Shown piece after piece: positions 4,798 through 45,230 of a stretch of DNA of 64,000 bases. Source of the stretch: Actinomycetota bacterium (GTDB lineage Bacteria > Actinomycetota > Actinomycetes > Nanopelagicales > Nanopelagicaceae); assembly GCA_009701575.1 (NCBI GenBank), contig WLJX01000004.1:1-64000 (forward strand). Direction: 5' to 3'. The notes under the pieces were generated by a model that was given only the letters and a program-made list of their open reading frames with translations, made no database searches and was not told the DNA's origin. The first letter of the stretch is position 1. Each line of letters begins with the position of its first letter. Both the position numbers and the translations under genes were made by a program.

Positions 4798-5147
4798 TGG
4801 CGCCAATTATTGGAATTGGAATTGATGTCGTTGCAATCGAACGTTTTCAAGAGTCATTGGATCGCACGCCAGGATTGCTAACTCGCGTGTTTACTCCAAG
4901 CGAGTCGCAACTAAAAGTTTCCAGTCTGGCCGCAAGATTTGCAGCTAAAGAGGCTCTAGCTAAAGCGCTTAATGCCAAGTCGGCTTTCAATTGGCAAGAG
5001 GCCGAGGTCATTAATGAATCGAGCGGAAAACCAAATTTTGTATTTACCGGAGAGATGGCCAAACGATTAGCAGATCACAAAGTTCATTTAACGCTCTCGC
5101 ATGACGGTGGAATCGCATCCGCAATGGTGATTGTCGAGGCCAATTAA
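4797..5147 (+). CDS. acpS: Holo-[acyl-carrier-protein] synthase
   Basis: GIGIDVVAIERF ... RVFTPSE ... AARFAAKEALAKAL; GTG start. Confidence 0.93.
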   Translation: MAPIIGIGIDVVAIERFQESLDRTPGLLTRVFTPSESQLKVSSLAARFAAKEALAKALNAKSAFNWQEAEVINESSGKPNFVFTGEMAKRLADHKVHLTLSHDGGIASAMVIVEAN

Positions 5148-6241
5148 TGCGGGCCTTTGTTGAAGTAAATTTAAAGGCAATTGCAAATAACATTGCGCTA
5201 ATTAAGAACGAAACCTCTGCCGAAATTCTTGCCGTAGTAAAGGCAGATGCATATGGTCATGGCTTAGTTCCAATTGCAAAATGCGCGATTAAATCAGGAG
5301 CCTCGTGGCTTGGAGTCGCCTTACTTGAGGAAGCTTTCACGCTTCGCGAAAATGGGGTTACCGCACCACTTATTGCCTGGCTAACTCCACCGAGTGCGGA
5401 TTTCAAAGCCGCAATTGATTCCAATATTGATCTTTCTATTCCATCTTTGAAGCATCTAGAACTTGTAGTTGCGGCAGGTAAAGTGGTTGGTAAAAGGCCA
5501 CGAGTTCATATCGAGGTTGATACTGGAATGAGTCGTGGTGGATTGCTCGGTGAGTGGCAAGAATTTTTGATTGCAATTAAGGGCGCCGATGTAGAAGTTA
5601 TTGGTTTCTGGTCACACTTTGCAAGAGCTGATGAACCAGATGAAATTGCGAATGAAAAACAACTTCAGGAATTCGAAGCTAAATTATCAGAGCTACGTGA
5701 AAAGGGTATTAATCCGAAATATGTCCACTTTGCTAACTCTGCTGCAACTCTTACCAATCCAACTTCACATAACGACATCATCCGCTTAGGAATTTCCATG
5801 TATGGACTAAGCCCTGATGTTAATACCCTTGGCTCTTCACAATCTTTGAACCTTGAACCTGCAATGACCCTTAAGGCCGAAGTTCATTTAGTAAAGCGTG
5901 TACCGGCTGGATCTCCAGTTGGATATGGCGGAACCGAAAAAACTTCCCGCGATACTAAACTTGCAATTATCACTATGGGATATTCCGATGGCATACCACG
6001 CAACACAACGAGCGCTGCGGGTGTATTTGTTGGTGGTGCAAAAGCTCCAATAATTGGCCGAGTATCTATGGATCAATTCGTAGTTGATTTAGGGCCGGAT
6101 TCAGATGCGAAAACTGGGGATATTGCTGAGATATTTGGCCCCCTTGGATATTCAATTGATGATTGGGCTAACGCGGCAGGAACAATTAATTATGAAATGG
6201 TTACTCGAATCGCCACTCGCGTGCCTAGAATCTACGGGTGA
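5147..6241 (+). CDS. alr: Alanine racemase
   Basis: PLP lysine motif AVVKADAYGHG, catalytic region GYSDGIPR, GRVSMDQFVVDLG. Confidence 0.95.
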   Translation: MRAFVEVNLKAIANNIALIKNETSAEILAVVKADAYGHGLVPIAKCAIKSGASWLGVALLEEAFTLRENGVTAPLIAWLTPPSADFKAAIDSNIDLSIPSLKHLELVVAAGKVVGKRPRVHIEVDTGMSRGGLLGEWQEFLIAIKGADVEVIGFWSHFARADEPDEIANEKQLQEFEAKLSELREKGINPKYVHFANSAATLTNPTSHNDIIRLGISMYGLSPDVNTLGSSQSLNLEPAMTLKAEVHLVKRVPAGSPVGYGGTEKTSRDTKLAIITMGYSDGIPRNTTSAAGVFVGGAKAPIIGRVSMDQFVVDLGPDSDAKTGDIAEIFGPLGYSIDDWANAAGTINYEMVTRIATRVPRIYG

Positions 6242-17496: not shown

Positions 17497-18261
17497 ATGG
17501 CAAATTCCCCAATAATGACGCTCAGCATTGATTGCGGCGGACTTAGTATCAAGGCCTCGGTCCTTGATGAAGATGGCACGATGCATGCCCCTGCAATCGC
17601 AGTGCCAACCCCATATCCACTTACTCCGCTGGATCTCATCAACGTCTTTAAAGATATTGCCTCAAAACTACCTAAAGCAGATCGCATAACAGTTGGCTTT
17701 CCGGGAATGGTTCGCCACGGAGTTGTTGTAAATACCCCACATTATGTAAATGTAAAAGGGCCGCGCACCAAAGTTGATCCAGAGCTGTTCTATGCCTGGA
17801 AGGGTTTAGATTTTAGAAGTCAGGTCGAAGAAACTTTTAAGCTTCCAACCTTGATGTTAAATGATGCTGAGGTCCATGGCGCTGGCGTTGTTGCTGGCTC
17901 TGGCTTTGAAGTTGTTTTAACCCTTGGAACCGGACTTGGTTGCGCAGTATTTGATGGTGGAAAACTTGCACCCCATATTGAACTTTCACATGCTCCGATT
18001 CGTCGATCAACAATTTATGACGAATGGATTGGTGAGCACGAACGTCGTCGCCTTGGCGATTCATTCTGGTCTCGCCGAATTCGCGCGATGGTTACAGATT
18101 TGCGCCCAGTATTTCACTGGGATCGACTCTATTTAGGTGGCGGAAATGCCCGCCGAATTACACCTTATGTCTTAGAACTGATTGGCGATGATGTTGTTAT
18201 CGTGCCAAATGCTGCCGGAATTGTTGGCGGCGTTCGGGCATGGAATTTAACTCGCGTTTAA
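17497..18261 (+). CDS. ROK-family sugar kinase-like protein (polyphosphate glucokinase-like)
   Basis: LSIDCGGLSIKASVLDEDG, VGFPGMVRHG, MLNDAEVHGAGVV, VLTLGTGLGCAVF, YLGGGNARRI. Confidence 0.72.
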   Translation: MANSPIMTLSIDCGGLSIKASVLDEDGTMHAPAIAVPTPYPLTPLDLINVFKDIASKLPKADRITVGFPGMVRHGVVVNTPHYVNVKGPRTKVDPELFYAWKGLDFRSQVEETFKLPTLMLNDAEVHGAGVVAGSGFEVVLTLGTGLGCAVFDGGKLAPHIELSHAPIRRSTIYDEWIGEHERRRLGDSFWSRRIRAMVTDLRPVFHWDRLYLGGGNARRITPYVLELIGDDVVIVPNAAGIVGGVRAWNLTRV

Positions 18262-18293
18262 AAGGTCTCGATTTATTTCGGCCGGCAAACCAC

Positions 18294-18325
18294 TTGCCAT
18301 TGTTATCATAGATAATCTATAATCC
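18294..18325 (+). promoter_or_regulatory. Predicted promoter (TTGCCA-18-TATAAT) overlapped by GntR-type operator ATAGATAATCTAT
   Basis: TTGCCA 18294-18299, TATAAT 18318-18323; palindrome ATAGAT-A-ATCTAT 18308-18320; same core as site at 21402-21423. Confidence 0.62.
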
Positions 18326-18345
18326 TCTTCAATTACAAAGGGGCG

Positions 18346-19530
18346 ATGGCTATGATTATTGAGTCTGTGGATCTTTTTTACGTACGCATGCCAGAGGTTT
18401 TGGATATTGGGGATGGAAGCCAAGATGGCTTAGTTTTTCGAGTTCGAGCCGGAGGATTTGAAGGCTTCGGTGAAGCAGTTGCATCGCCTCTAACCTCAAT
18501 AGCAAGTTGGATCGCTCCAATGTCACACAGTGGGTGCCATCCAGTTATTGATTCTGTACTTGGTTCAAAGCTTGATTCACCGGCTGATATTCAGGCCATC
18601 GCAGACAGAGTAAGGGCGCAATCGTTTTATGGAATTATTCAGAGTGATTTAACTTTCTCTGGAATTGAAATCGCGCTCTGGGATTTGTTAGGTCGGGCCA
18701 AAGAACAACCTATCTACGAGCTTTTGGGGTATCGAAGTTCAGAGAAGAAATTGCCTTACGCGTCAGTCCTATTTGGGGATAGCCCAGCAGAGACGCTAGA
18801 AAAAGCAAGATCTATGCGCACCCGTGGTTTCTCCGCAATTAAATTTGGTTGGGGACCATTTGGACGTGGCTCTGTTGAACAGGATGCCGAACATATATTT
18901 GCCGCTCGCGAAGGAATTGGAAGTGACGGTCATTTAATGATCGATGCTGGAACTGTTTTCGGAGATGACGTTGATGCAGCAGCCCTTCGGTTGAAAGCGC
19001 TATCTGAGGCGAAAGTAAAATGGTACGAAGAACCAGTATCAGCCGCTGCTATTTCGCTATACAAGAATTTGTCGTTACGTACTCCAAAGGTTCCACTGGC
19101 TGGGGGAGAGGGAGCACACAATCGATATCAGGCCGAGCATTTAATTGATCAAGGTGGAGTTGAGTACATTCAGATTGATACTGGATATATCGGCGGAATT
19201 GGACCAGCCTACAAAGTTGCTCAACATGCGGTGAAGCAAGGAGTCCAATTTGTTAATCACACTTTTACTTCTCATTCCGCACTGGCAGCCTCGATGCACC
19301 CATTTGCTGGCTTGAAAGAGTTCTGGCTTGCCGAATATCCAATGGAACCGAAGGCGCTATGTGCAGAAATGAATAAGAACAAGATTGAAATTCAGAGTGA
19401 TGGAATGATTCAAGTTCCAGAACGTCCTGGTCTTGGCATTGATTTTGATACTGAAACTATTAAAAAGTATTTAGTTGAAATTGAGATCAAAGATTCTGGA
19501 AAGGTTCTTTACAAGACCCCAACTATTTAA
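18346..19530 (+). CDS. Mandelate racemase/muconate lactonizing enzyme (enolase superfamily) protein 1
   Basis: KFGWGPFG; metal-ligand segments LMIDAGTVFG, WYEEPV, LAGGEG; IDTGYIGGIGP, VNHTFTSHSALAASMHP. Confidence 0.85.
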   Translation: MAMIIESVDLFYVRMPEVLDIGDGSQDGLVFRVRAGGFEGFGEAVASPLTSIASWIAPMSHSGCHPVIDSVLGSKLDSPADIQAIADRVRAQSFYGIIQSDLTFSGIEIALWDLLGRAKEQPIYELLGYRSSEKKLPYASVLFGDSPAETLEKARSMRTRGFSAIKFGWGPFGRGSVEQDAEHIFAAREGIGSDGHLMIDAGTVFGDDVDAAALRLKALSEAKVKWYEEPVSAAAISLYKNLSLRTPKVPLAGGEGAHNRYQAEHLIDQGGVEYIQIDTGYIGGIGPAYKVAQHAVKQGVQFVNHTFTSHSALAASMHPFAGLKEFWLAEYPMEPKALCAEMNKNKIEIQSDGMIQVPERPGLGIDFDTETIKKYLVEIEIKDSGKVLYKTPTI

Positions 19531-20192
19531 ACGCTCTTTCCATCAACTTTTTTTGAGATCCGAGTTTGAACTGTTCCGATTATGTGCCATTTAAGTATTT
19601 CATCAATCTTTGTTGGCGAACCAGTTGTTAGGACTTCAAGTAGGGCTGCGTGCTCGGATGCTTGCTTGGATAAACTTGGACTAGGTCCGTATTTATAGAA
19701 TTCCAAGCGAACTCTAGATAAGACGGCCTTCCACAAGTTAAGAGTTTGCGTTGAGGCTGCAACTTCCATGGTTATTGTATGGAATTTAATATCCGCTTCA
19801 TTGACCATTTTAATATTCTTTAACTTGGCTCCAGCGCGCATCTGTTCAATTTGATTTTGAAGTTCTTTGACTACATAAGGAGTAAATTTAGCGCGCGCAT
19901 TTCGTAACGCAAATTGCTCCATGACCAGGCGAACTGGTAGCAACATATGCAGAAACTCTTCGTTTGAAATGGAAGTAACGAAGACGCCACGATTGGGAAT
20001 ATGTTCAAGAAGGCCCTCGCTCTCAAGATCACGCATGGCTTCGCGAACGGGTCCAGGACTACATTTGAATTTTTCGGCAACCTCATTCTGTTTCACCTGA
20101 GAACCTGGCATTAGTTCGCCAGAGATGATTTGTTCACGAAGAAAGTGCGCAACACTTGAACGCTGCGAGATTGGTTGTTTACTTAAGGACAT
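19527..20192 (-). CDS. GntR-family transcriptional regulator (FCD-like C-terminal domain)
   Basis: wHTH: SSVAHFLREQIISGELMPGSQVKQNEVAEKFKCSPGPVREAMRDLESEGLLEHIPNRGVFV. Confidence 0.9.
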   Translation of the reverse strand: MSLSKQPISQRSSVAHFLREQIISGELMPGSQVKQNEVAEKFKCSPGPVREAMRDLESEGLLEHIPNRGVFVTSISNEEFLHMLLPVRLVMEQFALRNARAKFTPYVVKELQNQIEQMRAGAKLKNIKMVNEADIKFHTITMEVAASTQTLNLWKAVLSRVRLEFYKYGPSPSLSKQASEHAALLEVLTTGSPTKIDEILKWHIIGTVQTRISKKVDGKSV

Positions 20193-20223
20193 CGGATAAG
20201 TCTACCTAACACCTGAAAAAGAA

Positions 20224-21354
20224 TTAAATGAAACCTTTCGCTCCCGTGTATTTTTCCACTTTATCTGGGTCGAGTTCGTAGCCTAAACCTGGCCCACTAG
20301 GGATCTCTAGGAATCCATCTGAATCCAGCTTCCATGGAGTTTTTCCAATGTCATCTACGTAGGCAGAACCCGTTATGTATTCGACCTTATTTGAACTGCT
20401 TATTGAAGATGCAAGCTGTAAATCGGTTGCCAACCCCACGGCCGTATTCCATCCATGTGGAATAACTTGAACGCCATAGGCATCTGCCAGGGTGGCAATC
20501 TTTTTGAATTCGCTTATTCCGCCAACTTTCGTTACGTCGGGTTGGACAATATCAAAGGCGCCATCTTGTAAGAATGGCAAGAAACTCTGCCTGCGAGTCA
20601 AAACTTCGCCACCTGAAATCGGCACACTTGATTGTTTACGTAGCTCCACAAAGTTATCTAGATCATCAGGTCTGATTGCTTCCTCTAGCCAACCAACTTG
20701 ATAGAAAGCCAGCATATGAGAAGTGTTAATGGCCCACCGAAGCCCATTACGCCAGTAAGCGTCACTTGCACCTGCATCAACAGCAAGAAAAGCTTTATCA
20801 CCAATTGTTTCTCGGGCCGTCTTTACTAGCAGCTCATCATGCTTATCATCAATTCGCCCATATGCGCCCCAACCAATTTTGAATGCCATGAATCCCTGAG
20901 ATAACAAATTCTCTAGATTAGCTGCCATGAGCTTTGGTTCATCCATCAATAGAGATGCGTAAGGCATAACTCTTTCTCTAACTCTTCCACCAAAAAAGCG
21001 CCCGATAGGTTGCTTTGTTGCTTTTCCAAAAATATCCCAAAGCGCAATATCTATTCCACTAATTGTGTGGGTGATAGCGCCACCACGGCCTTGCCAAAAA
21101 GTATTCTGATGTAATTTTTCACTTACTCGCGATGGCTCGTCTGCACGCTCCCCAATAAGAAGAGGCTCGAGAATTTCGAGTGAAGCTTTAACAAGAGCCT
21201 CGCTTGTAAAGACTGATCCAATTCCAGTAATTCCTTCATCAGTTTCGACTGCAATTAACGTGTGAACCACCGTGTCTGGCTTTAGTTCATCAGACCAACC
21301 ACCCTTCGGAGTGGCGCCCCGGAGCCCTGCTGCCTTAATGCGCACAATTTTCAT
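20224..21354 (-). CDS. Mandelate racemase/muconate lactonizing enzyme (enolase superfamily) protein 2
   Basis: FKIGWGAYGRID, LAVDAG, WLEEAI, ISGGEVLTRR, IVQPDVTKVGGISEF, IPHGWNTAVGLA; RBS GGAGG before ATG. Confidence 0.88.
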   Translation of the reverse strand: MKIVRIKAAGLRGATPKGGWSDELKPDTVVHTLIAVETDEGITGIGSVFTSEALVKASLEILEPLLIGERADEPSRVSEKLHQNTFWQGRGGAITHTISGIDIALWDIFGKATKQPIGRFFGGRVRERVMPYASLLMDEPKLMAANLENLLSQGFMAFKIGWGAYGRIDDKHDELLVKTARETIGDKAFLAVDAGASDAYWRNGLRWAINTSHMLAFYQVGWLEEAIRPDDLDNFVELRKQSSVPISGGEVLTRRQSFLPFLQDGAFDIVQPDVTKVGGISEFKKIATLADAYGVQVIPHGWNTAVGLATDLQLASSISSSNKVEYITGSAYVDDIGKTPWKLDSDGFLEIPSGPGLGYELDPDKVEKYTGAKGFI

Positions 21355-21401
21355 TATTTACCTCCGATTAAATCAGCCAAAAAGATCAGCCGAATAGTAT
21401 T

Positions 21402-21423
21402 GACAGATTATAGATAATCTGTC
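21402..21423. promoter_or_regulatory. Palindromic operator, probably for the adjacent GntR regulator, overlapping a minus-strand promoter
   Basis: GACAGATTAT-AG-ATAATCTGTC, perfect 10-bp arms; minus-strand TTGCGT-17-TATAAT overlaps it. Confidence 0.7.
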
Positions 21424-21547
21424 ATCGTAACGCAACGTTTAAACCTCCTCCTTTGGCGAGGCATGGGGATTGGGCGAGGTGGGTACTTGGGGGTACTCGC
21501 GGTATTCCAAATCTGCTAGTTCACATTCAAAAAAGGGAGAGAAAAGA

Positions 21548-22498
21548 ATGGTTATAGCAAAATTAATGAAGCGCAAAGCGGGATTGGCGATTCTTGTTGC
21601 CAGTACAACTTTCGCTGCAACTGTAAGTATTGGTATCTCATCAGCACATGCTGCTGCAGGCGATATCAATTATTCATACTTTACAAAAAACTTTGGATGG
21701 ACCCCTATGAAGGGCCGCCTACCAAATATGGATTGCAAAGACCGTTCATATTCTAATGCGGTAATCAAAGGTATTAATCTAGGCGTTTACGATGCCGCGC
21801 CATACATGTACACCGAGAACGGAAAAATGACTGGTATTGATTACGACATCAATATTGCGGTCCTAGAATATATTGGGATCAAAAAGCACAAGGACATTTT
21901 GTTGCAGTGGCCTCAGATGATTCCAGCACTACTTTCAAAGCGAATTGATGTTATTGGTGGCGACATCCATGAAAATCCAGATCGCTTAAAATCCATCGCG
22001 TTTACCACAACTGCTTGGTGGTACGGAACAACTCTGATGGTTAAATCCGATAATCCAAAAGGTATTAAAACTTGGGCAGACTTGCAAAAGCCTGGTGTGA
22101 AAGTTGGCGTACTTACAGGATCATTCGTTGGTGAATTCCTCGCTAAGCTTTCACCAAAACCAGATTTGGTATTAGTGCCAGATTCAAACTCTGAGTTCCA
22201 ATCTCTAGCATCAGGGAAAGTAGATGTTGTTGTTGATGATGCGCCAAAAGAGGGCGCATACATGATCAGCAATCCTGGTTCAGGGTTAAAGATTTTGAGC
22301 GCAGCAACATCAAACCCTCCTGTTGATTTCCAGGATACTGATGCAAAATTTGCTCTGCGTCCTGCAGATTGCTCATTGAATCAAGCCTATTCACGCGGTT
22401 TGGCTGAATTGCGCGATCACGGCGTGATCACACAAATCCTAAAGAAGTATGGACTAGGAGATGGAGATAACCTCTTCATGCCTAACTACAAGCCATAA
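21548..22498 (+). CDS. Polar-amino-acid-type ABC transporter substrate-binding protein (SBP family 3)
   Basis: Signal peptide ...SIGISSAHAAAGD; GKMTGIDYDINIAVLEYIGI, LLSKRIDVIGGDI, SLASGKVDVVVDDAP; ATG 21548 with upstream GGGAGAG. Confidence 0.88.
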   Translation: MVIAKLMKRKAGLAILVASTTFAATVSIGISSAHAAAGDINYSYFTKNFGWTPMKGRLPNMDCKDRSYSNAVIKGINLGVYDAAPYMYTENGKMTGIDYDINIAVLEYIGIKKHKDILLQWPQMIPALLSKRIDVIGGDIHENPDRLKSIAFTTTAWWYGTTLMVKSDNPKGIKTWADLQKPGVKVGVLTGSFVGEFLAKLSPKPDLVLVPDSNSEFQSLASGKVDVVVDDAPKEGAYMISNPGSGLKILSAATSNPPVDFQDTDAKFALRPADCSLNQAYSRGLAELRDHGVITQILKKYGLGDGDNLFMPNYKP

Positions 22499-22515
22499 CG
22501 AGTAGGAAATTTAGA

Positions 22516-22555
22516 GGCGGCAGGCTTTCTTCGAGAGTCTGCCGCCTTTCTCTTT
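22516..22555 (+). terminator. Strong hairpin with T-rich tail between SBP and permease genes
   Basis: GGCGGCAGgct-ttcttcgag-agtCTGCCGCC followed by TTTCTCTTT. Confidence 0.75.
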
Positions 22556-22609
22556 AGCATCCTGTTAAGTTCTTTAATTGTTACTTACTAGCAATAGTTA
22601 GGATCAAAA

Positions 22610-23308
22610 ATGCTTTTTAATATTGATAATGCCTACTCCGCCCTTGGTGTTCTCTCCTTGGGACTCTTGATGACTATATTTTTAACTATTATTTGCGGAG
22701 CAACAAGTTTAGTTGCTGGCGTCTTTGTAGCCCTCGCTAAAATGTCAAAAAGGCGTTGGTTAAGGGCTATAACTGGTTCTTACGTAACCATAGTTCGATC
22801 AACTCCGCTATTGGTTCAATTGATTTTCATTTATTACGCTTTACCATTTGTCGGAATTCGATTGAATCCGCTTTCTGCGGCGTACATCGGATTATCATTA
22901 AATGTAACTGCCTACCTTTCTGAGGTTTATCGTGGGGGAATAGAAGCTGTTTCAAAAGGGCAACACGATGCCGCCGCCGCTTTGGGAATGAAAAGTTCTG
23001 TAGCCATGCGACGAGTAATATTTCCACAAGCCTTGCGAACACTAATTCCGACCCTCGGAAACTATATTGTTTCGCTCTTCAAAGATACTTCCCTTGCATC
23101 TGTCGTTACAATTCAAGAATTGATGTTTAAAGGGCAGATAATTGCGGCTCAAAATTATGACTACATGACTATTTACGCGATGGTATTTCTTCTTTATTTA
23201 GCGGTTGGTTATCCGTCAATTCGTTTTGTTACATATTTGGAAAAACGCATGAAAAACGGTTATGCCGTCAAGAAGGCTTCAAAAAGGAAAGTAGGAGTTG
23301 CGCTATGA
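22610..23308 (+). CDS. Amino-acid-type ABC transporter permease
   Basis: [74 protein letters not shown]. Confidence 0.93.
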
Positions 23309-24075
23309 GTACACCGATAATTGAAATTAAGAATCTTACAAAGAGTTTTGGATCCAACCTAGTGCTGGAAGATTTCTCTACAACAATACAAAAAGGAGAA
23401 GTTGTTGGAATTATTGGACCTTCTGGGAGTGGAAAATCAACGTTACTTCGTTGCATAAACTTTCTTGAAATTGCAGATTCAGGTTCTATCTCTATTGCCG
23501 GAGAGGAAGTAAAAGTCGATGGCAAAGGCGGACATTCTGTACCTGCGCTAAAAATAGCCCAATTACGCACAAAAGTTGGAATGGTTTTTCAGCAATTCAA
23601 TTTATTTCCACATCTAACGGCAATTGAAAATATCATCGCTGGACCTAAGTATGTTCTGAAGGAAGACCAGAAAGAACGAGAGCAGAAGGCTCGCAACTTA
23701 CTTGAAATGGTTGGACTATCGGAGAAAATGGATCATTTCCCAGAAGAACTTTCTGGTGGCCAGCAACAACGTGTAGCCATTGCCCGAGCGTTAGCAATGA
23801 ATCCTGAGGTGATGCTATTTGATGAAGCAACCAGTGCTTTGGATCCCGAAATTGTTGGTGAAGTTCTAGGCGTTATGCGCAAATTAGTTGATGATGGAAT
23901 GACGATGTTAGTAGTAACGCATGAGATGGGCTTTGTTCGACAAGTCGCTGACCGGGTAATATTCATGGATGAAGGCAAAATCGTTGAAGAGGGACCACCA
24001 AGTCAACTCTTCGATAATCCAAAACACCCTCGAACAAAAGATTTCCTATCGGCTATTCTTTCACATACCGAATAG
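23305..24075 (+). CDS. Amino-acid-type ABC transporter ATP-binding protein (GlnQ-like)
   Basis: [68 protein letters not shown]. Confidence 0.93.
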
Positions 24076-24090
24076 CGAAAAGGTATCACT

Positions 24091-24993
24091 TTGAATAGAG
24101 GCGTTTACCCCGTAATCCAAACTCCTTTGGATGAGAACGATGAAATTGATGAAGGTGTTTTTGAAACCGAAATCAATTGGTTAATTAAGTGCGGTGTTAA
24201 AGGTTTAGTTCTGGCAATGGTTTCAGAGGTAATGCGGTTTAGTGCGGCCGAACGGCGCAAACAATGGCAGATTGTGCTTCGCATACTTGACGGACGCTTG
24301 CCCCTAATCGTTAGCGTTGGCGGCGAGAGCACCGCAATTGCAGTTCAATTGGCAAAAGCTGCAGAAGCTGATGGCGCAACCGCACTAATAGCAACCCCTC
24401 CTGCATCATTCCCGGCAACCTCATCCGAAATCTATTCTTACTACTCCACAATTATTGAAGCAGTGGAGATTCCGTTAATAGTCCAGGATGCAAGTAATTA
24501 CATGGGTCAACCACTTGAACTTGAGTTGTATGGAAAGTTGCTTGAGAAATATGGCAATACCCGCGTGCAATTTAAGCCAGAAGCAAAGCCAGTTAAAGAC
24601 CGTATGGCGGCGTTACAAGAAATTGCAGGCGGAAATGCAAAAGTTTATGAGGGCCAGAGTGGTTTGGATTTGCTGGATACGCACCCACTTGGACTTGTAG
24701 GAACAATGCCAGGCGCTGAAATTCCTTGGGCAATTATCGCGCTTTGGGAGGCTTTGGAAGCCAACGATTTGGCACGTGCTACTGCAATTCATGCTTGCGT
24801 TAAAAACTTAGTTGCATTTCAACCAACCATTGATGCCTATGTCGCAGTTGAAAAATATTTATTAGTAAAACAAGGAATCTTTACTTCAAGTCGTCAGCGC
24901 GGCCCAGTTAGCGTAACCCTTAGCGATCAAACCAAGAACGAGATTGATCTCGTATTCAGCGAGCTTCTTAAGGTTGTTGGAAGGCAGAAATGA
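24091..24993 (+). CDS. Dihydrodipicolinate synthase/N-acetylneuraminate lyase (DapA) family protein
   Basis: GVYPVIQTPLDENDEID, LPLIVSVGGESTAIAVQLAKAAEADGATALIATPP, VQFKPEAKPVKDR; TTG start. Confidence 0.82.
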   Translation: MNRGVYPVIQTPLDENDEIDEGVFETEINWLIKCGVKGLVLAMVSEVMRFSAAERRKQWQIVLRILDGRLPLIVSVGGESTAIAVQLAKAAEADGATALIATPPASFPATSSEIYSYYSTIIEAVEIPLIVQDASNYMGQPLELELYGKLLEKYGNTRVQFKPEAKPVKDRMAALQEIAGGNAKVYEGQSGLDLLDTHPLGLVGTMPGAEIPWAIIALWEALEANDLARATAIHACVKNLVAFQPTIDAYVAVEKYLLVKQGIFTSSRQRGPVSVTLSDQTKNEIDLVFSELLKVVGRQK

Positions 24994-26387
24994 CAAGTGT
25001 TTCTAACCGAGTTGATCTCACCCCCAAGCAATTGGAGCACTTAAAATCCCTTGTTTCTGGTGGAGTGAGTTCAAGCAAATCTGTTTTAGAACAACATGGC
25101 ATGGATGAGTCGGCTCACCTACCAATCCTTCCCTCCGCAGTGGCAATGGTTAGTTCTACAGAAGAAGTTTCAAAAGTACTTGCCTACTGCAATCAAGAAA
25201 GAATTCCGGTTACTCCATTCGGAGCTGGCACATCATTAGAAGGTAATGCAATTCCATTATTTGGTGGCCTTAGTTTAGATCTGACTAACATGAATAAAAT
25301 TTTAGATGTTCGACCAGATGATCTGACCGTTCGCGTCCAAGCCGGGGTTCGGCGCATGGCGCTAAATGAACGGCTATCACGTGAAGGTCTCTTCTTTTCA
25401 GTTGATCCAGGTGCTGATGCAACTATCGGAGGTATGGCTTCAACAGGTGCTGCAGGTACTACAAGTGTGCGTTACGGAACGATGAGAGAGAACGTCTTGG
25501 CTCTGACTGCCGTACTTGCTGACGGAACAATTATTGAAGCAGGTCGCGAAACTCGGAAACTTTCGGCAGGTTATGACATAACTAGGTTGCTTGTTGGATC
25601 GGAAGGAACTCTTGCAGTCATTACCGAGATTGCACTTAAGTTAAATGGCATACCTGAAAAAATGGCTGCTGCGATAGTTAACTTTCCAACCCTTTCTGAT
25701 GGATTTCAGGCAGCGACAGCCATCGTCAGAATGGGAATTTCAATTGCTAGATGTGAATTCCTAGATGAGGTTTGCATTCAAAATGTAAATGCCTTAGATG
25801 GTTTGAATCTAAAGGTTGCACCAACTTTGCTCTTCGAATTTCATGGAACGCCGCAAGGTGTCGAAGAGGAAGCCAAAGCCGTAGCAGAGATTGCTGCGGA
25901 ATTTCATGGCAGTGATTTCGAATGGGCCGCCGATGAAGGTGCTAGGCGAAAATTATGGCAAGCAAGACACAATGCACATTGGGCAGCGATGGCAGCAAAT
26001 CCTGGAATGCGAACTGTCAGCACCGACACGGCAGTTCCATTATCTAGGTTGGCCGAAGCTGTTAGAGTAGCAAGCGAAATCTTTAACGCCTCAAGATTTA
26101 AGTTTTCAATTTTGGGCCATGTCGCTGATGGAAATTTCCATGTTTCAATAGTTACCGATCCAGAAAAGCCGGAGGATCTCGTCGAAGTTCGTAAATTAAC
26201 TCATCAATTAACCGGTCGAATTATTGATATGGGTGGTACTTGCACCGGTGAACACGGAATTGGATCTGTAAAAATTGAAGATCTCGTAAAGGAAGTTGGA
26301 GAAAATGGAGTTAACGTGATGCGTTCTATAAAGCGCGCCCTTGATCCAAATGGAATTCTAAATCCTGGAAAAATATTCAGTAATTAA
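24990..26387 (+). CDS. FAD-linked oxidase, GlcD/D-2-hydroxyacid dehydrogenase-like
   Basis: VTPFGAGTSLEGNAIP, VDPGADATIGGMASTGAAGTTSVRYGTMRENV, SILGHVADGNFHVSI, GGTCTGEHGIGSVK. Confidence 0.9.
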   Translation: MTSVSNRVDLTPKQLEHLKSLVSGGVSSSKSVLEQHGMDESAHLPILPSAVAMVSSTEEVSKVLAYCNQERIPVTPFGAGTSLEGNAIPLFGGLSLDLTNMNKILDVRPDDLTVRVQAGVRRMALNERLSREGLFFSVDPGADATIGGMASTGAAGTTSVRYGTMRENVLALTAVLADGTIIEAGRETRKLSAGYDITRLLVGSEGTLAVITEIALKLNGIPEKMAAAIVNFPTLSDGFQAATAIVRMGISIARCEFLDEVCIQNVNALDGLNLKVAPTLLFEFHGTPQGVEEEAKAVAEIAAEFHGSDFEWAADEGARRKLWQARHNAHWAAMAANPGMRTVSTDTAVPLSRLAEAVRVASEIFNASRFKFSILGHVADGNFHVSIVTDPEKPEDLVEVRKLTHQLTGRIIDMGGTCTGEHGIGSVKIEDLVKEVGENGVNVMRSIKRALDPNGILNPGKIFSN

Positions 26388-26692
26388 GAAGCGGTAGAGA
26401 AAGTACCTTCATCAGCGCTCTGATTATGGCTTAATATATTTAAGCGATCGTCTTCAGTTAAGCCACCCCAGATTCCATATGGCTCAGCCAAAGTAAGGGC
26501 TTGCTTTCTACATGCTTGCAATACGGGACATGAGGCACACACAGCCTTTGCGGCATTCTCACGATTCTTGCGGCGAGGTCCACGCTCTCCATCTGTATAG
26601 AAGAACATTTCAGTAGGAAGCTCACGACATGCAGCAGATTCTTGCCATTCCCAATCAGAAGCGATTGGTCTTGGCTGTATCTGTGTAGTCAT
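26384..26692 (-). CDS. WhiB-family transcriptional regulator
   Basis: WQESAACRELPTEMFFY, GERGPRRKNRENAAKAVCASCPVLQACRKQAL, YGIWGGLTEDDR: four Cys and GIWGG. Confidence 0.95.
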   Translation of the reverse strand: MTTQIQPRPIASDWEWQESAACRELPTEMFFYTDGERGPRRKNRENAAKAVCASCPVLQACRKQALTLAEPYGIWGGLTEDDRLNILSHNQSADEGTFSTAS

Positions 26693-26832
26693 CCGGGCTC
26701 CTGTTCACGTATTTACTGCTCTAAGCGATAGTACAACCGCGCCATAGGTTGTTCAACAATCCACCGGCTTTTGTTGCGTAATTTAAGCGTTTTCAGGTGG
26801 CAAGGTTCACAGCTTCTAGGGACAATTGCAGC

Positions 26833-27753
26833 ATGACCCCCGCGCTTGAGACCCTTGATTCAAAGGAATCGCTCCCAGTCGCAGCCGTAGCCCGAATGCT
26901 TGGGGTGGCGCCCTCAACTCTTCGTACTTGGGATCGCCGGTATGGCTTAGGTCCTAGTAAGCACAACGTCGGTACACATCGAAGATATTCTGCAACTGAT
27001 TTAATTCGATTAACTGCAATGGTTCGACTCGTTGTTGCCGGGGTAGCACCGAAAGATGCAGCTCTAAAAGCACTAAAACTAAATGTGCAGGGAAGTAGGC
27101 AAGCAATTGAAAAGGTTTGTCGAGTACCAGAGAGCCAAGCGGATCTTGTAACTCTGCTCCATCGCTCGGCTATGAAATTTGATCAGGCACAGCTTGAAAA
27201 ACTCATAAGAAAATCAATTGCAGGTATCGGTGTTGAAGCCACCTGGCTTGAAGTCCTATCCCCACTGTTAATTGAAGTGGGAGATGAATGGGTGCGCACG
27301 GGTGATGGAATTGAAGTTGAACATTTTCTGAGTGAGTTACTACGAAAGATATTAAGTGAAAGCCTTGGAAAGATTGATAAGCCTAAGAATTCACGGCCGG
27401 TACTGCTTGCATGTGTTGAAAATGAAATGCACTCACTTGCATTGATGGCGCTCGCCGCAGTTTTGGCTGAAGCCAAGGTCGAATGCTTATTTCTTGGTGC
27501 CAGAACTCCACAAACAGCGCTTAATCAAGTTGTAATTAAATCCGCGCCACCAGCAATTTTTCTCTGGGCCCAACTTGGCGAGAATGCAGATCATACTTTT
27601 GTGAATGAGCTTCCAACAATCCGGCCAGCACCAAGAGTTCTATTGGGTGGACCTGGCTGGAAATCTGCAAAAGGAAAAATCCACAGCAAAGTGGTAATTA
27701 CCGAAGGACTTAGTGAAGCCCGAGAAGAGATTCTGCAGGCTCTGGCCGTTTAA
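26833..27753 (+). CDS. MerR-family regulator with C-terminal cobalamin-binding domain (CarH/LitR-like)
   Basis: HTH PVAAVARMLGVAPSTLRTWDRRYGLGPSKHNVGTHRRYS; W-x9-EH in DEWVRTGDGIEVEHFL; B12-domain-like ENEMHSLALMALAAVLAEAKVECLFLGARTP. ORF may start at 26797. Confidence 0.83.
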   Translation: MTPALETLDSKESLPVAAVARMLGVAPSTLRTWDRRYGLGPSKHNVGTHRRYSATDLIRLTAMVRLVVAGVAPKDAALKALKLNVQGSRQAIEKVCRVPESQADLVTLLHRSAMKFDQAQLEKLIRKSIAGIGVEATWLEVLSPLLIEVGDEWVRTGDGIEVEHFLSELLRKILSESLGKIDKPKNSRPVLLACVENEMHSLALMALAAVLAEAKVECLFLGARTPQTALNQVVIKSAPPAIFLWAQLGENADHTFVNELPTIRPAPRVLLGGPGWKSAKGKIHSKVVITEGLSEAREEILQALAV

Positions 27754-27785: not shown

Positions 27786-28916
<1,131 letters not shown>

Positions 28917-28918
28917 CC

Positions 28919-30031
28919 ATGAACGAAATTGAAATTGGCCCAGGAAAGCGTGCTCGCGTTGGCTATTCATTTGATGACATTGCGATAGTTCCAAGCCGCC
29001 GTACTCGTGACCCAGAAGAGGTTTCAATCAACTGGCAGATTGATGCTTACAAATTTGCACTTCCAATGATGGCTGCTCCAATGGATTCTGTTGTATCACC
29101 AGATACTGCAATCGCCATCGGAAAGCTTGGCGGACTTGGAGTTTTAAACCTCGAAGGACTTTGGACAAGGCACGATGATCCAAGAATTCCACTTGGTGAA
29201 ATTGCATCGATGCCACAAGAAAAAGCTATTCGCAGAATGCAGGAACTTTACTCATTACCTATTCGTCCGGAACTTATTAAAGAACGTATCGCACAAATTC
29301 GCGCATCAGGTGTGACGGTCGCTGCGGCCCTTTCACCACAACGAACAGCTGAACATGCAAAGGCTGTTATTGATGCTGGTGTAGATATCTTCGTTATTCG
29401 CGGAACCACTGTGAGCGCCGAACATGTTTCGACTGAAATTGCGCCATTAAACTTAAAGAAATTTATTTATGAATTAGATGTCCCAGTAATTGTTGGTGGC
29501 TGTGCAACTGGTACTGGTGCTCTTCACTTGATGCGCGCTGGTGCTGCTGGTGTGCTAGTTGGATTTGGTGGCGGCGCGGCACACACAACTCGTTCAGTAT
29601 TAGGTATCGCGGTACCAATGGCATCTGCTGTTGCCGAAGTCGCATCTGCTCGTCGTGATTACATGGATGAATCTGGTGGACGTTTTGTTCACGTGATCGC
29701 CGATGGCTCTGTTGGTAAATCTGGCGATATTGCAAAGGCAATTGCTTGCGGTGCCGATGCCGTAATGATGGGCTCGCCACTTGCGAAAGCAGTTGAATCA
29801 CCAGGCAAAGGTTGGCACTGGGGTTCTGAAGCACATCACACAGAATTACCTCGCGGTGACAGAGTTCAAGTTGGAATTGTCGGAACTTTGGAAGAGATAC
29901 TCGTTGGTCCATCTCACCTTGCAGATGGAAGTATGAATTTGTTCGGTGCACTGCGACGTGCGATGGCTACATCTGGTTACTCAGATCTAAAAGAGTTCCA
30001 GCGCGTTGAAGTTGTAATCGATCGTGTCTAA
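28919..30031 (+). CDS. guaB3: GuaB3-family IMP dehydrogenase-like protein
   Basis: [73 protein letters not shown]. Confidence 0.93.
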
Positions 30032-44037: not shown

Positions 44038-45123
44038 TTAATTAATGCGGAGTCCTGAATTTGCATCAAATAGGTGAACCGCAGCTGGAATTGCATTAAC
44101 TGAGATTGTTGCACCTGGCTTTGGTGGATTCTTTGGATCCCAACGAACAATTACTTGTGCGCCTTCATCAGTTTCTTGTGCAAACTTAATGCTCTTATCT
44201 ACTGGCTTACCGTAGATGAAAGCATCTGAACCAAGCTCTTCAACAACTTCAACTTGAACATCGAAGCCACCTGAAGTAGCAGGAACAAAACCTTCTGGGC
44301 GGACACCAACTGTTACAACTGCACCAGCACTTGCTGGAACATCAACAGCGAAGCCACCAAGTTGTGCTTTGCCACCCGAAACTGGAACTGTCAGCAAGTT
44401 CATTGCTGGAGAACCAATAAATCCGGCAACGAAAGCATTTGCTGGACGATCATAAAGATTGCGAGGTGTATCAACTTGCTGAAGCAGACCATCTTTAAGA
44501 ACTGCTACGCGATCTCCCATTGTCATTGCCTCTACTTGATCGTGTGTCACATAAACTGTTGTGATTCCAAGACGACGTTGTAGTGCGGCAATTTGAGTAC
44601 GAGTTGCAACACGAAGCTTTGCATCCAAGTTTGATAGCGGTTCATCCATCAAGAACACTTGTGGCTCACGAACAATTGCGCGACCCATTGCTACGCGTTG
44701 ACGCTGTCCGCCAGATAGCGCCTTTGGCTTACGGTCTAAATAATCTTCAAGATCAAGAAGCTTTGCTGCTTCCTTAACGCGACGATCGCGTTCTGCTTTA
44801 TCTATGCCAGCAATCTTTAGTGCGAAGCCCATGTTTTCGGCTACGGACATATGTGGATAGAGCGCGTATGACTGGAACACCATTGCAATATCGCGATCTT
44901 TTGGTGCAACGTGAGTTACATCTTTATCGCCAATGCGGATTGAACCAGTATCAACTTCTTCTAGGCCGGCAAGCATGCGGAGTGATGTTGATTTTCCGCA
45001 ACCTGATGGGCCAACTAGAACAAGGAATTCACCATCATTGATAGTTAGACTTAACTTATCTACTGCAGGCTTGGTGGTGCCTGGATAAACGCGAGATGCA
45101 TTTTCAAATACGACTGATGCCAT
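44038..45123 (-). CDS. UgpC/MsmK-type sugar ABC transporter ATP-binding protein
   Basis: ASVVFENASRVYPGTTKPAVDKL, GPSGCGKSTSLRMLAGLEEVDTG, SGGQRQRVAMGRAIVREPQVFLMDEPLSNLDAKLRV, C-terminal TOBE-like region. Confidence 0.93.
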   Translation of the reverse strand: MASVVFENASRVYPGTTKPAVDKLSLTINDGEFLVLVGPSGCGKSTSLRMLAGLEEVDTGSIRIGDKDVTHVAPKDRDIAMVFQSYALYPHMSVAENMGFALKIAGIDKAERDRRVKEAAKLLDLEDYLDRKPKALSGGQRQRVAMGRAIVREPQVFLMDEPLSNLDAKLRVATRTQIAALQRRLGITTVYVTHDQVEAMTMGDRVAVLKDGLLQQVDTPRNLYDRPANAFVAGFIGSPAMNLLTVPVSGGKAQLGGFAVDVPASAGAVVTVGVRPEGFVPATSGGFDVQVEVVEELGSDAFIYGKPVDKSIKFAQETDEGAQVIVRWDPKNPPKPGATISVNAIPAAVHLFDANSGLRIN

Positions 45124-45230
45124 CTTTTTACTTCTCCTTTTCCGGGCAGGTACGTGCCCGACGATCCTTTGGATAAAGGCTTTGCTACCGCTCGGTTGAG
45201 CGTGGGCATAGGTTACGCGTCGGAGGCGAT

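Follow-up and report, generated by a model that had tools for sequence, protein, structure and literature searches.

Freshwater actinobacteria respond to light, though our literature search found no assigned light sensor for their acI group. The locus described here, in a window of 64,000 nucleotides of Nanopelagicales DNA (the whole stretch that was analysed), raises the question of whether a MerR-type regulator with a cobalamin-binding fold could be such a sensor and, if so, which genes it would control.

Domain architecture of the regulator

The open reading frame starts at an ATG at position 26833; an in-frame GTG at 26797 would lengthen the product by 12 residues. The gene and its domains are as follows.

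26833..27753, plus strand: MerR-CBD regulator, 306 aa (LitR/CarH-like, actinomycete branch; ORF listing, Pfam, PDB relatives and tree)
26878..27060, plus strand: MerR helix-turn-helix DNA-binding domain, residues 16-76, with LRTWDRRYG (Pfam MerR_1, 5.7e-13)
27157..27357, plus strand: four-helix bundle B12-binding_2, residues 109-175 (Pfam, 2.3e-7)
27400..27666, plus strand: Rossmann-type B12-binding domain, residues 190-278 (Pfam, 1.4e-7)

The helix-turn-helix that the preliminary description had read from the letters is borne out by the Pfam match, and the protein contains all three domains of the CarH architecture (MerR helix-turn-helix, B12-binding_2 and B12-binding), the last of these at 31.8 bits against a Pfam cut-off of 32.1 and, in a genome-level search, at 33.4 bits, above that cut-off. 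Its best relatives in the PDB are the CarH structures 3whp (1.8e-22) and 5c8d (2.7e-22), and because they align over residues 11-277 the W-x9-EH motif of the regulator must be homologous to theirs, chance being excluded. An AlphaFold model built from five sequences had a pLDDT of 52 and was set aside.

Residues of the cobalamin pocket

The residues that decide how the cobalamin fold may be used lie at these positions.

27289..27324, plus strand: W153-x9-E163-H164, the CarH adenosyl-contact motif (sequence, alignment with 5c8d, orthologues of the order)
27424..27441, plus strand: E198-M-H200-S-L-A203, putative lower axial His, with Ala in place of Gly (alignments)
27565..27567, plus strand: W245 in place of the tail-pocket Ser (Ser222 of Thermus thermophilus CarH, TtCarH; SxT/V motif; orthologue alignment)
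27646..27651, plus strand: G272-G273, the GG motif of the B12 fold (alignments)

The exact W-x9-EH spacing noticed earlier holds in both the sequence and the alignment with 5c8d, where W153, E163 and H164 fall on W131, E141 and H142 of TtCarH, and the candidate lower-axial His proposed within ENEMHSLA is likewise well placed, with E198-M-H200 on E175-x-H177. Equivalents of W131, E141 and H177 occur in all 56 aligned orthologues from the order and that of H142 in 55. The Gly-to-Ala change reported at the end of E/DxHxxG is also real (A203), and since this position is Ala in 50 of the orthologues, Pro in 5 and Val in 1, it is a trait of the lineage. A second change, which the preliminary description did not mention, affects the equivalent of Ser222: it is Trp245 in the regulator and Trp in every one of the 56, and among 45 further actinomycete members it is Trp in 42 and Tyr in 3, giving 98 Trp and 3 Tyr in a sample of 101. 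None of these 101 proteins departs from the cobalt-ligand His, from the GxxxP residues or from the second Gly of GG; at the HxxG Gly all have Ala or Pro apart from one with Val and one with Thr, and in the EH pair the sole substitutions are one Arg and one Pro. The Trp of W-x9-EH is present in 56/56 members within the order and 33/45 outside it.

Measured against the classic B12 motif D/ExHx2G/P...SxT/V...GG (PMC9304148), the regulator has the His and the GG, with Ala203 at the G/P position and W-A-Q at SxT/V. Three of the four published light-response signatures (PMC11796333) are present, namely GxxW, EH and GxxxP, and the fourth, GxxH, reads NEMH. His132 of TtCarH, the upper ligand in the light state, is Val here, and none of the listed acI members has His at this position. 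The alignment also fails to preserve R176, D201, G160 and G192, which we take from the TtCarH structure to be dimer and tetramer positions.

Such a pocket might have ceased to bind cobalamin. The fold would then have been kept for oligomerisation or partner binding, with the Trp plugging the pocket and the activity of the protein set by a partner or by its expression level, and in keeping with this Trp or Tyr replaces the tail-pocket Ser, and Ala or Pro the HxxG Gly, throughout the branch. Precedents are CarA of Myxococcus xanthus, likewise a MerR protein with a cobalamin fold, which works without B12 (PMC9304148), and class II LitR, which needs none (PMC9758184). We nevertheless consider a CarA-like, B12-independent protein unlikely: the 56 orthologues show little or no variation in W-x9-EH, the cobalt-ligand His, GxxxP or GG, which would be unexpected without bound cobalamin; CarA reportedly keeps the B12 motif and lacks the W-x9-EH Trp, whereas the regulator does the reverse; and Streptomyces LitR, apparently of the same branch, is B12-dependent. 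The class II proteins of Pseudomonas (PplR/PmlR) resemble the regulator in being LitR-type with a deviating cobalamin module, but according to the literature they have no Rossmann B12 domain and are read out by a LOV protein, unlike the regulator.

Alternatively, the ligand itself may differ, being another tetrapyrrole or a corrinoid whose tail is smaller or folded away, so that the protein would be a redox or nutrient sensor feeding WhiB. An aromatic residue in the DMB-tail pocket of every member, with the adenosyl-side contacts kept, would suit such a ligand, as would an apparent target that is an Fe-S redox regulator; yet the conserved residues are the very ones that give CarH its adenosyl specificity, and the gene neighbours point to no other ligand, and we regard this as distinctly improbable.

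An actinomycete branch apart from canonical CarH

The regulator is LitR-type and belongs to a distinct actinomycete-wide branch apart from canonical CarH. It shows the marks of that branch (Trp/Tyr at the tail-pocket Ser, Ala/Pro at HxxG, invariant His and GxxxP), and it scores 104.4 bits with the NCBIfam CarH equivalog, the cut-off of which is 400 bits. In a tree that contained only three canonical CarH-type sequences, on long branches, the Trp-pocket actinomycete branch is separated from CarH and from two canonical CarH-like paralogues of related genomes, L121 and L122, with support of 100/98. The earlier assignment to the CarH family therefore stands as far as the architecture, GxxW, EH, GxxxP, the cobalt-ligand His and GG are concerned, and fails for canonical CarH on the equivalog score, the separate clade and the altered HxxG and SxV. 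The two paralogues retain both the HxxG Gly and the SxV Ser, and are possibly the sole members of the regulator's family with an unaltered B12 motif (two genomes). Each (L121 at 4986-5861 of G031:C2, L122 at 4800-5714 of G086:C8) is divergent from a gene for a fasciclin-domain protein with a signal-like N-terminus.

With the class I LitR proteins, the CarH of T. thermophilus, Bacillus megaterium and M. xanthus, the regulator shares the domain order, W-x9-EH, the cobalt-ligand His, GxxxP and GG. It differs from them in Gly180 to Ala, Ser222 to Trp and His132 to Val, in oligomer contacts that are not retained, in having one dyad inside a promoter without tandem 11-bp TnnACA repeats, and in not adjoining crt genes, whereas carH of T. 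thermophilus adjoins crtB and phr.

Closer relatives lie inside the Trp-pocket branch, where a subgroup with support of 98/83 holds genes linked to crt, photolyase and sigma-factor genes. L113, L114 and L116 adjoin an ECF sigma factor, a DNA photolyase and a DUF2867 epimerase; L109 and L237 lie in a photolyase-crtB-crtE-crtI cluster; and L118-L120 adjoin a NUDIX protein (IPP-isomerase-like by sequence) and a CrtI-like oxidase. A record from Streptomyces sp. KN37 has the same divergent sigma-factor arrangement, which we take to be the litR-litS layout of Streptomyces, together with the same pocket. From the litS/phr gene context, not from its own sequence, we infer that S. coelicolor LitR is a member of this branch too. 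That protein has been described as a coenzyme-B12-based, B12-dependent regulator; light-dependent carotenoid production in S. avermitilis required added B12; and AdoB12 strengthened both dark repression and light activation by Streptomyces LitR, giving lower expression in the dark and higher expression in the light (PMC12705666). Thus a Trp-filled pocket need not abolish the use of B12, and by analogy light sensing by the acI regulator is plausible.

The Streptomyces LitR-type genes share with the regulator both the branch and the pocket changes (ExHxxP/A, Trp for Ser, GGPGW), and litR is divergent from the gene of the sigma factor LitS as the acI gene is from that of WhiB, both of these being global regulators. 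They differ in having W-x10-EH rather than W-x9-EH, a longer linker and, as target, an ECF sigma factor beside a photolyase; their loci contain no match to the acI operator described below. Read from the CarH side, the tree suggests that linkage to whiB preceded linkage to crt and photolyase genes. We speculate, though we think it less likely than not, that this is an ancient actinomycete line of Trp-filled-pocket B12 photoreceptors with the older job of coupling light to the iron-sulphur redox regulator WhiB, and that carotenoid and photolyase control by LitR in Streptomyces and relatives is a later re-use; in freshwater acI bacteria the protein would then be a one-operator light switch.

Distribution and gene neighbourhood

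A search of 251 genomes from the order gave a homologue in 192, a count that includes at least one genome (G086) with the canonical paralogue alone, and in 89 of the 108 good genomes; all of these belong to an order of small genomes (1 to 2 Mb), about 190 of 251 of which keep the gene adjoining guaB. Across the wider class, matches occur in 153 of 297 genomes. The neighbours that matter here are the following.

26384..26692, minus strand: whiB-like gene for a protein of 102 aa, transcribed divergently from the regulator and presumed to be its target (Pfam Whib, 3.2e-22)
27795..30031, plus strand: guaB and guaB3, the downstream syntenic anchor (synteny comparison)

The gene order groEL - whiB (divergent) - regulator - guaB - guaB3 reaches many high-GC families, with extra genes ahead of guaB in some relatives (for example, a response regulator in L084). 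The divergent pair is retained through much of the class, and at L111, L115, L107 and L110 (families f26 and f33) it persists although about 5 kb to either side contains neither groEL nor guaB; conservation of the whiB-regulator pair itself thus extends beyond the guaB block. The two genes do not form an obligate pair, an idea that we rejected: whiB often outlives merR, though three closed g4 genomes have lost both. Between groEL and whiB, the window itself has sugar-acid and transport genes over about 9 kb (17497-26387; a ROK-type protein, two enolase-superfamily enzymes, a GntR-type regulator, an ABC importer and DapA-like and GlcD-like proteins), far more than is found there in most relatives.

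A candidate operator in the whiB promoter

The intergenic region between whiB and the regulator contains the conserved element TACAAYCGNNNCATARGTTGTTCAAG, which differs by no more than 5 mismatches within the order and can be recognised in other families. Its parts in the window are listed here.

26732..26757, strand not assigned: candidate operator TACAACCGCGCCATAGGTTGTTCAAC, 26 bp, with the dyad ACAACC-N8-GGTTGT (conserved across the order)
26751..26756, minus strand: putative -35 of whiB, TTGAAC (pattern TTGnnn-N17-TAnnnT; too weak for a generic promoter scan, which missed it)
26728..26733, minus strand: putative -10 of whiB, TACTAT (same pattern; unlisted by the generic promoter scan)

The pattern TTGnnn-N17-TAnnnT occurs on the whiB strand in 72 of 87 whiB-merR intergenic regions as against 5 of 87 on the other strand, and the 17-bp spacer between the putative hexamers is occupied by the operator dyad. 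Promoter spacers are usually not conserved, so a dyad that is conserved in this one looks like a regulator site; the -35/-10 spacer is, besides, the typical site position for MerR proteins. The locus therefore combines a MerR-family helix-turn-helix with a dyad between putative hexamers, to which the protein is predicted to bind. Tandem 11-bp repeats of the CarH type (nnnnTnnACAn) were found, two in tandem, in just one of the 87 regions. Many relatives have another conserved block, roughly TTTCARGTGGYG, close to the start of the regulator gene (26788-26801 in the window, and homologous positions), and some members of the family carry an additional, weaker operator copy at a distance of about 27 bp from the first.

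An operator consensus was built from 65 acI sites (46 bits in 42 columns). With three mismatches allowed, the element was found exactly once per genome in all 16 genomes searched that have merR, and not at all in three closed genomes without it, all three of which also lack the corresponding whiB. In a further 14 genomes from three genera, several of them closely related, whiB is present and no regulator was found. In 13 of them guaB or guaB3 lies directly beside whiB, the region of the fourteenth (G080) being ended by a contig edge, and the operator is absent from all 14. The element accordingly tracks the regulator rather than whiB, and we rejected the idea that it is a plain whiB promoter, since these 14 genomes keep whiB without it. 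It could instead be merR's own promoter, lost along with the gene, and a single-step deletion may have taken the regulator and the DNA of the element together. By this comparison, the regulator is coupled to one conserved dyad in the putative -35/-10 spacer of whiB, adjoining its own gene.

Search for other targets

Possible control of carotenoid or photolyase genes elsewhere had been part of the preliminary description. The operator matrix found no element at the crtB loci of 15 relatives or at the photolyase loci of 15 genomes, the source genome included, with flanks of about 1.5 kb; the best scores there were -24 to +3, whereas the real site scores 48. A shorter operator core with three mismatches matched no more often than a reversed-pattern control, and crtB was not recovered in the source genome, which is incomplete. 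The proposed carotenoid and photolyase targets are thus unsupported, the sole strong candidate operator being that in the whiB promoter, though weaker sites may exist at these loci. Upstream of branch members unlinked to whiB, the same element ranked first in the locus for L118 and L103 (by chance about 0.03 to 0.05 each) and did not for L113, L119 and L120, and we do not claim it there.

Cofactor supply and a model of light control

An ATP:cob(I)alamin adenosyltransferase (PF01923, 5.2e-61) is encoded in the source genome, and the enzyme was found in all 15 relatives tested, including genomes without the regulator. Published acI genomes have no B12 synthesis and do have a putative cobalamin ECF transporter and riboswitches (PMC5301498). 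Such dependence on uptake would suit a regulator that binds AdoCbl to report B12 supply instead of light, the holo-protein setting whiB according to imported cobalamin. We think this very unlikely: no element lies near the adenosyltransferase loci L197 and L199 (both from merR-lacking genomes), and the presence of branch members in photolyase and crt clusters suggests light.

To the reading of the regulator as a LitR-type B12 light switch of the divergent whiB gene, from the Trp-pocket actinomycete branch, we give an even chance. The protein would bind the 26-bp dyad and carry AdoCbl made by the adenosyltransferase from imported cobalamin; W153 and E163/H164 would lie against the adenosyl group, and H200 beneath the cobalt. 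Light would break the Co-C bond and, by analogy with Streptomyces LitR at litS, turn the repressor into a non-repressor or an activator of whiB, and probably of its own gene too. The output would be a light-set level of the iron-sulphur redox regulator WhiB, with no direct control of pigment genes. Two predictions follow: cobalamin photoreception persists when two textbook residues of the B12 motif are lost, and a WhiB protein may mediate the action of light. With a named light-sensor candidate, a single concrete DNA target and a probe of 26 bp, the question becomes directly testable.

Elsewhere in the window, an msiK RNA (RF01747, 63.5 bits) lies at 45128-45186 on the minus strand, just upstream of an ABC ATPase gene at 44038-45123.
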